Under the pieces are notes generated by a model. The model was not told the DNA's origin. It searched no databases and saw nothing but the letters and a program-made list of their open reading frames with translations. From contig VHCW01000031.1 in assembly GCA_016871575.1 (NCBI GenBank), positions 1 to 46,627 of the forward strand: a stretch of 46,627 bases of DNA, read 5' to 3'. Below, in pieces: positions 20,644-46,627 of this stretch (position 1 is its first letter; every line of letters starts with the position of its first letter). Source of the stretch: Verrucomicrobiota bacterium (GTDB lineage Bacteria; Verrucomicrobiota; Verrucomicrobiia; Palsa-1439). The position numbers and the translations under genes were made by a program.

Positions 20644-20681
20644 TACCGGACTTGAGGAACGATCGTTCCGTATTTCCGGTA
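20644..20681. repeat. Palindrome B with core GGAACGATCGTTCC
   Basis: TACCGGA (20644-20650) pairs with TCCGGTA (20675-20681); the centre 20656-20669 is GGAACGATCGTTCC. The unit CCGG-N6-core-N6-CCGG spans 20646-20679 (34 bp). It begins 3 nt after the stop of the PaaX-like gene. It is close to a reverse-complement copy of element C, including flanking bases (CATACCGGA on one side, CCGGTAGATT on the other). Confidence 0.9.
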
Positions 20682-21520: not shown

Positions 21521-21558
21521 TACCGGAATCAAAGAACGATCGTTCCCTGATTCCGGTA
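21521..21558. repeat. Palindrome C with core GAACGATCGTTC
   Basis: TACCGGAATCA (21521-21531) and TGATTCCGGTA (21548-21558) are perfect complements around GAACGATCGTTC (21534-21545), with two unpaired positions between. CCGG to CCGG is 34 bp (21523-21556), as in A and B. It is 54 nt after the stop of the CPBP protease gene and 45 nt before the PaaX-like start. Confidence 0.9.
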
Positions 21559-32697: not shown

Positions 32698-32743
32698 CCG
32701 GTGAATCTATGGAACGATAGTTCCATAGATTCACCGGGTTTTT
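32698..32743 (+). terminator. Palindrome D, intrinsic-terminator-like, core GGAACGATAGTTCC
   Basis: Left arm 32698-32715 and right arm 32720-32737 are perfect 18-bp complements with loop GATA. A run of five T (32739-32743) follows, so it should end transcription of the polysaccharide operon. The core differs from A-C by one base (GATA for GATC), and CCGG to CCGG is 40 bp because the inner spacers are N9 rather than N6. It lies between two convergent genes. Confidence 0.82.
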
Positions 32744-40720: not shown

Positions 40721-43377
40721 GGTTGTTTCTTCGTTGCGGGTTTTGGTTGTAGCCACTCGGCTGGCGGGTGGCCTTTGACGTCGGGCTGGTAGCGGCGTAA
40801 CGCTTCGCGCTTCTTTTCCGGCACGAGTTCGTCCCATTCCGTCAGCGGCTTCACGGCCGGCACGGCATCGGCGGTCTTGAAGCGCATCGTCACGATCTGT
40901 TGGGGGCGAACAGGGAACTTGTAGCTCGGGCCGCCTCGCAACGGCTGACGATTGCCGCCGAGCATGTCAGTCAACGCTGCGCTTTCGTGCGGCAGACGCA
41001 GCATGACTTGTGCGTTACCGGCTTTGCCGAGACATTCGACGAGGCGCAATTCGATCTCGCTGCCTTCACGGCGCAGCGCCTCGACGATGACGTTGTCGCT
41101 GGTTTGCAGAAACTCCGTCGTCTTCACCGACGGCAAATCTGTCGGCGTGTTGTACTCCCACGCCCGTTGCGCCACCCGCGCGGTGGTGAAATCACCGGTG
41201 TGCGGGACGAGCGCGTATCGCAACACGTGCCGGCCTTTGCCACTGAGCCACGAGTTGGTGTGGCCGCGATAGGTGTCGTTGGCGTTGTAGAGGTAGATGA
41301 TCGGCGTGTTGTCGGTGATCTCGCGGCCGGTGAGGCCCTGATCGAGTAACGCCACGCCGGCGCCAGCCATCTGGTAATGCGACCAACGCACCGCCGGGGT
41401 GATGCCTTTGACGAAGCCGGGCAGAGCGGCGTTGGTGATCGCCCACGCGCCGTGGGCGAAGCCGTACGGGATGCCCCGGCGCACTTCGCGCACGGGCGCG
41501 GCGAGCGGGAACTCGGCGACGACAACAGTCCGGTCGGGGATGTTGTTCAACTCGGTCTCGAAATCTATCCGCGGATCATCCCGGTGAAACGTCATCGTGC
41601 GCCGCAACCGGCCACCGCCGAGGAACGACGACTCCGCTTCCACCACGGTCATCTCAGAACTGGCGCGGACGCTGAGGCGCGGTGCGGAATGGTTGGAATC
41701 GGCGAGACGGTCGCGGTCGGGCCGGTCCACCATGTGGTCGGCGGAAAAGGCGATTTTCTTCTTCGGCTGCTCGGCGACGATGACGTTGGCGGGGCCGCCG
41801 AGCAGTTCGCGGTTGCCGAGCTTGAGGCTGATGAGCGCGCCGGTCTTTGGATCGAGCCGGGCGGAGTAGAACTTTGTCCGTATGGTCTCGTTCAAGGAGC
41901 GGCGGTTTGCAACCGCCGCAGCCTGATTGGCGACAGGCTCGTTCTTCTGTGAACTCGCCACGGCGGCGGTTGCAAACCGCCGCTCCTTGGGAGTAGCACT
42001 CAAATCAGAGTTCAATGAGAGTGAGCGGGCGGCGCGCGTGGCGATGGCGCGGGCGGTTTGCTCGACCCACTCGAACCGGTCGCGGGCGTCCCAACTGCGT
42101 TCGTGCTCGAACACCATGCCGCCGGCGGCGCCCCAAAGGGTGTTGCGGTCCATGTTCAGGCACATCAACAGCCACGCGTGGTGGAACGCTTGCGCGGGAT
42201 ATTCGAAACCAGAAAGTGGGAGGGGCCTTGGCGCCCCGACCTTCTGTTTATGCCGCGATGAGTCGGGGCGCTGAGGCCCCTCCCACATTCCACCTGCATA
42301 GAGGCTGGCGGCGGTGGCGAGCATCTCGGCGGCCTGAAGCTCGTGTTCGCACCGGCGAAACCACGATTTGACGCGCGGGTTCTGGATCCAAAACGCGTTG
42401 TAGTTGAACATCGTTCCGCCGCGCATCACCGGCAGTTTGATCGCGCCCGACTTGATGCCCGGCAGAATGGCGTCGAGATATTTGCTCGACGTCGCGAACT
42501 GCACGTCGAACTCCGGTGCGACTTTCTTGAACTGTTGCAGGAACTCGGTCGGGTACGGTTTGTAGAGCGGCGCGAGGCTGTAGTCGGCGCTGCCGCCAAA
42601 CAGGAGCAACGGCGCGCCGACCGGGGCGCGACGCGGTTCGCCGCCCGACGGCTTCGCGTTTTTCACGATCTCCTCCGGCGTCAACGGCCTCGGATCGGCG
42701 CGGAACTGGAGGTCGGCCTGCAGTTCGGCGAGTTGTTTTTCTGTCAGTGGCACCGAGGACTTGAAAACGGGCGACCAGTCAGCGTACCGGCCGGGCGCGA
42801 CCGCAAGCGAGCGCGTGCCGTCGGGCGACTCGGCCCAGTGAATCGCGTAGCCGGTCGGGTTGTGCCGGCAATAGGCAAAGCCGTCGAGGCCGAGGCCGGC
42901 GCTGATCTGCGCCATCTGTTCGTGCATACCGGTCACGTCAATCATCCACGCGAGACGGGGACGCACACCGAACATCGCTTGTTGCCAGCGCAGGCCCTCG
43001 ACGCCCATTTTCACGAGCGCCTCGCCGCCGGAGAGGTTGATGGTCGGTTCGAGGAAGAAGGCGTTGCAGAGTTCGACGCGGCCTTCGCGGAGGCGTTGCT
43101 TCAACTCCGCGATGCGGTCCGGGCGGAAATTCAGCATCGCGATGAGATTGTTGCACTCCGAGAGCGCGAAGTTGTAGTTCGCGTCGTCCCGGACCCGGTC
43201 GAGGTGGTCGAAGTAGGAATTCGCGCAGTAGTTCCGCTCCGTGGACCAGTCGGTTAGCCATCCGCAACTGGCCGGGTGAAAGTTCGGCACGACGTAAACC
43301 GTTCGCGTGTCGGCGGCGTGCAGCGCGGCCAGCGGCGCCAGCAGCAGGGCGGTGAGGAGGGTGAGGGTGGGTTTCAT
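40717..43377 (-). CDS. GH38-like glycosidase, secreted, with two palindromic insertions
   Basis: 886 aa. A signal peptide (LTLLTALLLAPLAALHA) starts the protein. The middle resembles family 38 alpha-mannosidases: RPRLAWMIDVTGMHEQMAQISAGLGLDGF places the nucleophile at D147 (GH38 pattern WxxDxxGxxxxxA). ARLDPKTGALISLKLGNREL begins the C-terminal beta domain. The usual N-terminal HxHxD is not seen; the region reads VPNFHPASCGWLTDW, so substrate or activity may differ. Two REPIN-like repeats (42216-42286 and 41893-41989) lie in the frame and add about 25 and 33 low-homology residues around 364-388 and 463-495. First gene of the minus-strand operon. Confidence 0.8.
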   Translation of the reverse strand: MKPTLTLLTALLLAPLAALHAADTRTVYVVPNFHPASCGWLTDWSTERNYCANSYFDHLDRVRDDANYNFALSECNNLIAMLNFRPDRIAELKQRLREGRVELCNAFFLEPTINLSGGEALVKMGVEGLRWQQAMFGVRPRLAWMIDVTGMHEQMAQISAGLGLDGFAYCRHNPTGYAIHWAESPDGTRSLAVAPGRYADWSPVFKSSVPLTEKQLAELQADLQFRADPRPLTPEEIVKNAKPSGGEPRRAPVGAPLLLFGGSADYSLAPLYKPYPTEFLQQFKKVAPEFDVQFATSSKYLDAILPGIKSGAIKLPVMRGGTMFNYNAFWIQNPRVKSWFRRCEHELQAAEMLATAASLYAGGMWEGPQRPDSSRHKQKVGAPRPLPLSGFEYPAQAFHHAWLLMCLNMDRNTLWGAAGGMVFEHERSWDARDRFEWVEQTARAIATRAARSLSLNSDLSATPKERRFATAAVASSQKNEPVANQAAAVANRRSLNETIRTKFYSARLDPKTGALISLKLGNRELLGGPANVIVAEQPKKKIAFSADHMVDRPDRDRLADSNHSAPRLSVRASSEMTVVEAESSFLGGGRLRRTMTFHRDDPRIDFETELNNIPDRTVVVAEFPLAAPVREVRRGIPYGFAHGAWAITNAALPGFVKGITPAVRWSHYQMAGAGVALLDQGLTGREITDNTPIIYLYNANDTYRGHTNSWLSGKGRHVLRYALVPHTGDFTTARVAQRAWEYNTPTDLPSVKTTEFLQTSDNVIVEALRREGSEIELRLVECLGKAGNAQVMLRLPHESAALTDMLGGNRQPLRGGPSYKFPVRPQQIVTMRFKTADAVPAVKPLTEWDELVPEKKREALRRYQPDVKGHPPAEWLQPKPATKKQP
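41893..41989. repeat. REPIN-like element R1 inside the GH38-like gene
   Basis: Arms 41893-41919 and 41963-41989 are perfect 27-bp complements. Each arm is also a small hairpin with stem CGGCGGT/ACCGCCG and loop TTGCA. The peptide encoded on the minus strand is about residues 463-495 (KERRFATAAVASSQKNEPV and so on). The frame stays open. Confidence 0.9.
42216..42286. repeat. REPIN-like element R2 inside the GH38-like gene
   Basis: Arms 42216-42240 and 42262-42286 are complementary at 23 of 25 positions, and each arm contains GGGGC...GCCCC. Encoded residues on the minus strand are about 364-388 (EGPQRPDSSRHKQKVGAPRP). The frame stays open. The sequence is unrelated to R1 and R3. Confidence 0.85.
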
Positions 43378-44869: not shown

Positions 44870-45223
44870 TCAATACTTTTCGATTCTGACGTCCACCTTC
44901 ACGGTGAAATCCGGGCCGATGGTGGCGGTGACCCGGTAGAGTGGGCTGTTCTCGAAATAGCAGTCCGGCGCGACCGAGTGATGCTTGCCAGCGGCGTCGA
45001 ACTCGAACCGCAGGCTGGACTCGCCCGAGGGGCTGACGCCGAGACGCCTCTGCTCGCCGGGCGCAAGCGCGCCCAAGCGCGTGGAGAAGCCCGAGCCGGA
45101 CACCACAAGATCGGTGAGCGTTGTGGACGATTGGTTGACCACGGTGAGTTGCGGCTGGCGCGCGCAGCCCGTAAGGGCGGCAAGACACAGCACAGCGGCA
45201 AACATCACGAAGCATCGAATCAT
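44870..45223 (-). CDS. Small lipoprotein of unknown function
   Basis: 117 aa. A type II signal peptide with lipobox LTGC (MIRCFVMFAAVLCLAALTGC) predicts a lipid-anchored envelope protein. The rest is a small beta-rich domain (LTVVNQSSTTLTDLVVSGSGFSTRLGALAPGEQRRLGV). I do not recognise the family. GGAGGAG lies 10 nt upstream, and the ATG overlaps the stop of the beta-helix gene (ATGA), so the two are co-translated. Confidence 0.75.
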   Translation of the reverse strand: MIRCFVMFAAVLCLAALTGCARQPQLTVVNQSSTTLTDLVVSGSGFSTRLGALAPGEQRRLGVSPSGESSLRFEFDAAGKHHSVAPDCYFENSPLYRVTATIGPDFTVKVDVRIEKY

Positions 45224-46627
45224 GGCTTATTCTCCTCCACAACAGGCCAGCTTGCGCGCAGGTCGTCGCGGTAGCAACCAATCTTCTCGACGGGGATGCG
45301 CTTGAAACCAAGCTTGAACGCCGGCGAGGTGAAACGGAGACGGTAGTCGTCCTTGTTCGCGTTCACGAATCGAGGGTCGGCGATGAGTGAGTGACGATCC
45401 ATGCCAAGCGCCTGCCATGCGGCCCATTCGTCCATCGGCTCGGCGGCGTGCAGTTCCACGTCGTCCACGCAGACCGCGCCGTCGCCGTCGGGCAACCGGA
45501 TGCGGACGTAACAGCTTTTCATTTCCGGTGGCTGCGCGGGGAAACGCGCAATCAACTCGTGCTGCGACCACGCCGTGCCGACGCTGACGGTCTTCACCGA
45601 CTGCCAACTGTAGAGCTTGGGTCGGTAGGCTTGCAGGCCGATCTCGACGCGCACCGTGTGGGGCAGGTTTGCAACCTGCCTATTGCCGACAGCGGGCAGG
45701 TTGCAAACCTGCCCCACATTGCGGAGCCACACGGTGAGACGATAGACTTGGCCGTGCTGGACGGGAACCTCGGCGCTCTTCACGCTGGGGATGCGCGCCC
45801 ATGATTCCTTGTCTTTGTTCGCAGGATCGGTTTTGCCAGTGATGCGCAGGCAGCCACGACCGCCGTGCGGTGAGTCGGCGCAAAGCATGACGTGATCGTT
45901 CGTGCTCGGACGGATGTGCCACTTCCAAACCTCAGGTGTCTCGAAGTCGGCGTTGGGCGGCGCGATGTTCGGGCCGGTGACGGACTTGAGTTTGAACTGG
46001 CCGGTCTTGAGCGGCTGGTTGAAATGCCAGACGAGGTTCGAGTCGGAGAGGTTGTGCTCGAACGAGACGTTGCGGAAACTGAACGGCTGCGGCTGTGGGT
46101 CGCGCCAGCAAAGGATGTTCCGGCGGGCGACGTTGCGTTGCATCGTGCGGCCATCGGGCAGCGGCACCGTGCGCGGGTCGCGCAGGCTCGCGACGTTGCG
46201 CCACGCCGGCAGGTTGGCGACGGAGTCGTATTGTTTGCTCCAGTTCTCGATCTCCCGTTTCCACCAGCCGTAGCTGGTGTCCCAGCCGTTGAACTCGATC
46301 TGGCTGACCGCGCCGTGCTCATGCTGGCCGGAGCCGCACTCGACGAGGATGTTGTTCTCGATCAGGTTGTCGCGCCCGTCGTGGACATGGATGCCGGAGC
46401 GCGGCGTGCGCGCGACGATGTTGCCGGTAACCGTGACGCCCATCGCCGTCCAGTCGAGATAGATGCCCCACGCGAAATACGGCGCGAGCCATTTGCCCGC
46501 CTTGCCGCTGCGGCCGATGACGTCGTGGATGAAGTTGTGCCGGATGACGCAACCGTGGGCGGAGAGCCAGTTCAACGAGCCGCCGTAGATCGCGCCGGTG
46601 TCCATCGTCTCCAGACAGACGTCGTGG
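45220..46627 (-). CDS. Right-handed beta-helix protein, 3' part (5' end outside window)
   Basis: The frame is open from the window end to the stop at 45220, about 468 residues. CVIRHNFIHDVIGRSG, GIYLDWTAMGVTVTGNIVARTPRSGIHVHDGRDNLIENNILVECG is a parallel beta-helix (pectate-lyase-like) repeat pattern. A second, carbohydrate-binding-like domain with PNADFETPEVWKWHIR and PVQHGQVYRLTVWLRN follows. Probably secreted and polysaccharide-directed; the signal peptide is not in view. A palindromic element R3 (45657-45718) lies within the domain and encodes about VGQVCNLPAVGNRQVANLPH. Co-translated with the lipoprotein gene. Confidence 0.78.
   Translation of the reverse strand, partial: HDVCLETMDTGAIYGGSLNWLSAHGCVIRHNFIHDVIGRSGKAGKWLAPYFAWGIYLDWTAMGVTVTGNIVARTPRSGIHVHDGRDNLIENNILVECGSGQHEHGAVSQIEFNGWDTSYGWWKREIENWSKQYDSVANLPAWRNVASLRDPRTVPLPDGRTMQRNVARRNILCWRDPQPQPFSFRNVSFEHNLSDSNLVWHFNQPLKTGQFKLKSVTGPNIAPPNADFETPEVWKWHIRPSTNDHVMLCADSPHGGRGCLRITGKTDPANKDKESWARIPSVKSAEVPVQHGQVYRLTVWLRNVGQVCNLPAVGNRQVANLPHTVRVEIGLQAYRPKLYSWQSVKTVSVGTAWSQHELIARFPAQPPEMKSCYVRIRLPDGDGAVCVDDVELHAAEPMDEWAAWQALGMDRHSLIADPRFVNANKDDYRLRFTSPAFKLGFKRIPVEKIGCYRDDLRASWPVVEENKP
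45657..45718. repeat. REPIN-like element R3 inside the beta-helix gene
   Basis: Arms 45657-45680 and 45695-45718 are perfect 24-bp complements separated by 14 nt. Each arm is itself a hairpin with stem GCAGGT/ACCTGC and loop TTGCA. The core GGTTTGCAACC is shared with R1 (41893-41989). The gene remains in frame through the element. Confidence 0.9.

Follow-up and report, generated by a model that had tools for sequence, protein, structure and literature searches.

A REPIN of a small dispersed family lies in frame within a GH38-type gene of a Verrucomicrobiota bacterium, probably in a tolerant interdomain linker

The stretch of DNA analysed here, hereafter the window, comprises positions 1-46,627 of contig VHCW01000031.1 in assembly GCA_016871575.1 of a Verrucomicrobiota bacterium (Palsa-1439), a draft genome of 5.19 Mb in 257 contigs. 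Toward its end, the window carries a GH38-type gene with two REPIN-like repeats, R1 and R2, and an open reading frame (ORF) of another type with a third, R3 (Table 1). The product of the GH38-type gene contains both the N-terminal and the C-terminal domain of GH38 enzymes, with matches to the Pfam models Glyco_hydro_38N (PF01074; E 1.5e-22) and Glyco_hydro38C2 (PF17677; E 1.6e-4) that are both above cut-off, and a profile of its family matches the catalytic and the middle/C-terminal parts of solved alpha-mannosidases. The assignment to a GH38-like enzyme that had been made in a sequence-only reading of the locus is thereby confirmed. The N-terminus of the protein resembles a signal peptide, and this alpha-mannosidase-like enzyme is probably secreted.

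Table 1. Repeats and the reading frames that carry them, in positions of the window.
Feature	Position	Strand	Remarks
GH38-type gene, 886 codons	40717..43377	-	open through R1 and R2; R1 corresponds to residues 464-495
R1, first REP arm	41893..41919	+	tail CAAGGAG and hairpin CGGCGGTT-TGC-AACCGCCG; further copies elsewhere in the genome
R1, spacer, 43 nt	41920..41962	.	spacers of the copies in C21 and C93 are related
R1, second REP arm	41963..41989	-	perfect inverse of the first arm
R2, REPIN-like unit of another family (GTGGGAGGGGCC... family)	42212..42290	.	clean 28-residue in-frame insertion in the same GH38 gene
R3, REPIN belonging to the largest family (TGTGGGGCAGGTTTGCAACCTGCC)	45657..45718	.	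in frame within a beta-helix-type ORF
R3-bearing ORF, 468 codons or more	45223..46626	-	runs to the end of the contig; weak match to Beta_helix, short of the Pfam cut-off

We note that the signal-peptide region of this gene has a distribution of its own. A 41-bp coding core (LTALLLAPLAALHA; window positions 43316-43356) occurs at 21 places with at most 3 mismatches (0 for the reversed-pattern control), and the other 20 places in the host genome (L183-L203) are starts of apparently unrelated secreted proteins. The DNA upstream of the ATG and the protein past the cleavage site are unlike among them, and from this sequence pattern the core is best described as a dispersed signal-peptide cassette. 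Two 51-aa frames (L037 and L039, in C209 and C105) combine the same signal peptide with a common tail, RNLPG...GSFQAL, close to full-length genes with that peptide. Elsewhere in the window, a perfect 18-bp inverted repeat (CCGGTGAATCTATGGAAC; 32698-32737) and two similar 38-bp palindromes of the form TACCGGA...GATC...CCGGTA (20644-20681 and 21521-21558) are possible operators or terminators.

R1 is a perfect inverted repeat, with two arms of 27 nt each that are 100% complementary. Each arm is also a hairpin in itself (stem CGGCGGTT, loop TGC) behind its tail, and the whole has the anatomy of a REPIN, i.e., two inverted REP hairpins around a spacer. At the position of the GT(A/G)G tetranucleotide by which REPs have been defined (PMC3686654), R1 has GGAG and hence lacks the tail of a GTAG-type REP. 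Its core CGGCGGTTTGCAACCGCCG matches four times in the window, compared to 0.05 matches expected, and the element folds as single-stranded DNA at -46.7 kcal/mol against a shuffle mean of -18.95 (z = -10.6). An Rfam scan of R1 gave no match above threshold; those below it were all to eukaryotic microRNA hairpins, and we take them as chance similarities of hairpins. The arms are free of stop codons in all six frames. This does not extend to the whole R1 family, an idea that we discarded since the C93 copy has a single open frame. We likewise dropped the AT-rich 30 nt before R1 as part of the element, given that matches to other copies start at CCAAGGAG.

The segment that R1 would encode (KERRFATAAVASSQKNEPVANQAAAVANRRSL) has 32 residues, of which 28% are alanine compared to 11.6% in the whole protein. 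As the sequence-only reading had described, an element of about 97 bp with two inverted hairpins thus lies in the middle of a gene without breaking its frame, and the corresponding peptide (then placed at about residues 463-495) is alanine-rich and unlike its surroundings. Its residues are unique to this genome. A weak Pfam GH38C match starts directly after it at residue 499. AlphaFold modelling of nine sequences was poor overall (mean pLDDT 47.8), with residues 363-389 and 455-493 weakly supported as low-confidence segments.

A single scan of 84,980 species genomes yielded eight GH38 homologues that are 58-72% identical to the window protein and come from metagenome-assembled genomes named Verrucomicrobia, Opitutaceae, Kiritimatiellae or uncultured bacterium; those from a family set of 11 genomes were too distant for use. 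An insertion would be called into question if homologues without the repeat had the same residues, and neither the R1 DNA element nor the residues that it encodes occur in any of the eight. The distance from the conserved L453 to Y504 is 50 residues in the window protein, equal to that in its two closest relatives (L040 and L046), and homologues differ in the length of the linker at the R1 site (37-77 residues). A conserved FNPLNWxR strand between the middle and C-terminal domains, the counterpart of NTLPWPR in an alignment with the solved alpha-mannosidase Ams1, is retained completely or partially by each of the eight homologues and absent from the window protein. Since the linker does not exceed the length seen in the nearest relatives and FNPLNWxR has been lost, R1 stands in place of native sequence. 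As judged from this alignment, both insertion and deletion (or replacement) are involved, and the loss of native sequence may have preceded, accompanied or followed the insertion of R1. Because of this loss, neither a target-site signature nor a genuine empty site could be read there. The initial view of R1 as an insertion into the enzyme therefore holds insofar as the element is dispersed, in frame and absent from homologues, but not in the sense of a simply added segment.

At the R2 site, 35 residues separate two conserved positions of the window protein, compared to 7 in each of the eight homologues. The host gene is a mosaic in which residues ~134-325 resemble L040 and the flanking parts resemble L046 and L041, a pattern that suggests past recombination. 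A connection of R2 to a mosaic break was considered, but no such link was established.

All three repeats belong to dispersed families, with arm matches in the host genome numbering 11 for R1, 9 for R2 and 71 for R3 (0 for each reversed-pattern control). The full R1 unit including its spacer matches intergenic copies in C21 (78%) and C93 (74%), with the window copy being 1 nt longer, and the R1 family has few copies (about 6 units). In a survey sample of 447 kb, composed of the window and 20 stretches chosen regardless of repeats, we found 14 close pairs of inverted arms compared to 0 in a Markov control. Twelve of these have internal hairpins, of which five lie within predicted ORFs (three of the five being the window's own). 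Across the three families, 15 of 50 deduplicated units lie inside ORFs as predicted by a home-made simple codon-score predictor: 3/6 for R1, 4/8 for R2 and 8/36 for R3, with the remaining 28 R3-family units outside. However, ~92% of the sample is predicted to be coding, so that the REP units still strongly avoid genes.

Besides the GH38-type gene, about a dozen predicted genes of the host genome contain such repeats in frame. An R3-type unit (with GTGG tails, like R2) is found at one site in three FAD-oxidoreductase paralogues in C2, where it accounts for roughly 20 extra residues, and is absent from a paralogue in C5. The C2 units (L102 2494-2554, L102 7386-7437 and L103 4125-4176) share the same codon position, their spacers differ in length, and they may go back to one ancestral insertion. 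Putative further hosts in this genome are an FtsY-type GTPase, a GH95 protein, an FGE-sulfatase-domain protein, a GH5-like protein and another GH38N protein.

REPINs are linked to REP-associated tyrosine transposases (RAYT/TnpA_REP), and the host genome has nine Y1_Tnp matches. Four of these genes adjoin hairpins, with GTAG tails in C57, C49 and C33 and GTGG tails in C68, and no R1-type REP was seen beside a RAYT in this fragmented draft assembly. Among 289 genomes of the phylum, the R1-type pattern was found in only one other (G171, 19 matches). There, a RAYT (L176; 45% identical to the C68 RAYT) has GGAG-tailed hairpins like those of R1 on both sides, which makes a RAYT link for GGAG REPs plausible but indirect. 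Previous work showed that a change at position 2 of GTAG nearly abolished cleavage by the Stenotrophomonas enzyme and that the Marinomonas enzyme is more tolerant (PMC8266576). As a separate observation, the RAYT frame in C68 (L017 652-1821) follows a D-aminoacyl-tRNA deacylase (Tyr_Deacylase, E 6e-59) as an in-frame fusion, joined through REP hairpins encoding VGQPSRLS-type peptides, and the RAYT frame in C33 (L016 1540-2532) continues in frame into what by eye is TrpF-like sequence.

We favour the interpretation, with a probability of roughly 85%, that R1 is a RAYT-type REPIN tolerated in a permissive interdomain linker. A copy of this small family would have inserted into the linker that joins the middle domain to the C-terminal one, probably moved by a RAYT acting on single-stranded hairpins. 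The gene could then be read through R1, because the arms are stop-free in six frames and this particular copy is open throughout, resulting in an alanine-rich linker in place of the native one. The enzyme would tolerate the element because the length of this linker already varies among relatives. R1 would then be neutral, and any copy that disrupted the frame would not have persisted.

The most serious alternative, though an unlikely one, is that R1 sits in a decaying pseudogene that has lost a conserved strand and whose frame is open by chance. Besides the loss of FNPLNWxR, it could explain why the Pfam model Alpha-mann_mid does not match the window protein but matches six of the other eight. 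Yet, the gene has a strong coding score and runs over its full length without stop or frameshift despite two insertions, and its product deviates at only 7 of 350 columns that are invariant in the other eight sequences, a number that is not raised given that the others range from 0 to 23. These deviations argue against long decay of the gene and not against a recent loss of function, which would escape such tests.

It is still less probable that R1 functions as RNA or DNA, e.g., as an attenuator, an mRNA-stability hairpin or a spliced element, with its coding capacity being incidental. The hairpin is indeed very stable and published REPs can work as RNA elements (PMC3733652), but R1 lies in mid-gene with a frame that is open without splicing, all Rfam families stay below threshold, and the same repeat family is found in unrelated genes as well as between genes with no common context.

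Beyond its likely origin as a tolerated REPIN, R1 invites comparison to known systems. Its behaviour is, as first proposed, that of the Rickettsia palindromic elements (RPEs), which are likewise palindromic, located in ORFs of functional-looking proteins and read in frame (PMC3733652). That R1 is itself an RPE or a close relative acquired by transfer is hardly credible, since RPE-4/6 are CGTC REPs of another phylum (Di Nocera et al. 2013, PMC3733652) with no tail or sequence in common by their published description, while R1 (ending CAAGGAG...CTCCTTG) and its sister copies are GGAG-tailed and dispersed in their own host beside other local REP families.

A closer parallel exists within the phylum. 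The sequence-only reading had considered this behaviour undescribed for the group, but REPs and REP dimers within ORFs have already been reported, those of GTAG type above all from Opitutus terrae (Verrucomicrobia); they encode 20-30 residues and occur twice in some ORFs (Di Nocera et al. 2013, PMC3733652). These elements resemble R1 as dimers inside ORFs, and the tail of the O. terrae GTAG-20 family is mostly GTGG; compared by description only, R1 differs in its GGAG tail and in the native residues lost at its site. With the REPIN/RAYT systems of other bacteria (Bertels and Rainey 2011, PMC3116915; Nunvar et al. 2013, PMC3686654), R1 shares the inverted doublet with a spacer and an 8-bp hairpin with a 3-nt loop behind a tetranucleotide; the tail of R3 is the canonical GTGG, and R2 resembles the P. 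fluorescens REP PF1 (GTGGGAGGGGGCTTGCCCCCGAT). In strain SBW25, overlap with genes is limited to 14 of 1,067 core REPs (PMC3116915), in contrast to the 15 of 50 units within predicted ORFs reported here. R1 is therefore a further, well-supported case of an event type known from the phylum, set apart by a non-canonical tail and the loss of native sequence. One might go on to suppose that GGAG-tailed REPs form a distinct, RAYT-mobilised class of Verrucomicrobiota and that their REPINs can replace interdomain linkers of secreted enzymes, beyond only extending them, by insertion coupled with deletion, as a recurrent supply of new linkers, but we regard this extension as speculative and rather doubtful.

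REPs are extragenic by name, yet in this survey about 30% of units fall within predicted ORFs. The cases backed by homologues, in proteins that are apparently intact, indicate that Rickettsia is not the only group in which small mobile repeats supply proteins with new residues, and the clean R2 insertion and the FAD-oxidoreductases with and without insert provide concrete pairs for tests of tolerance.
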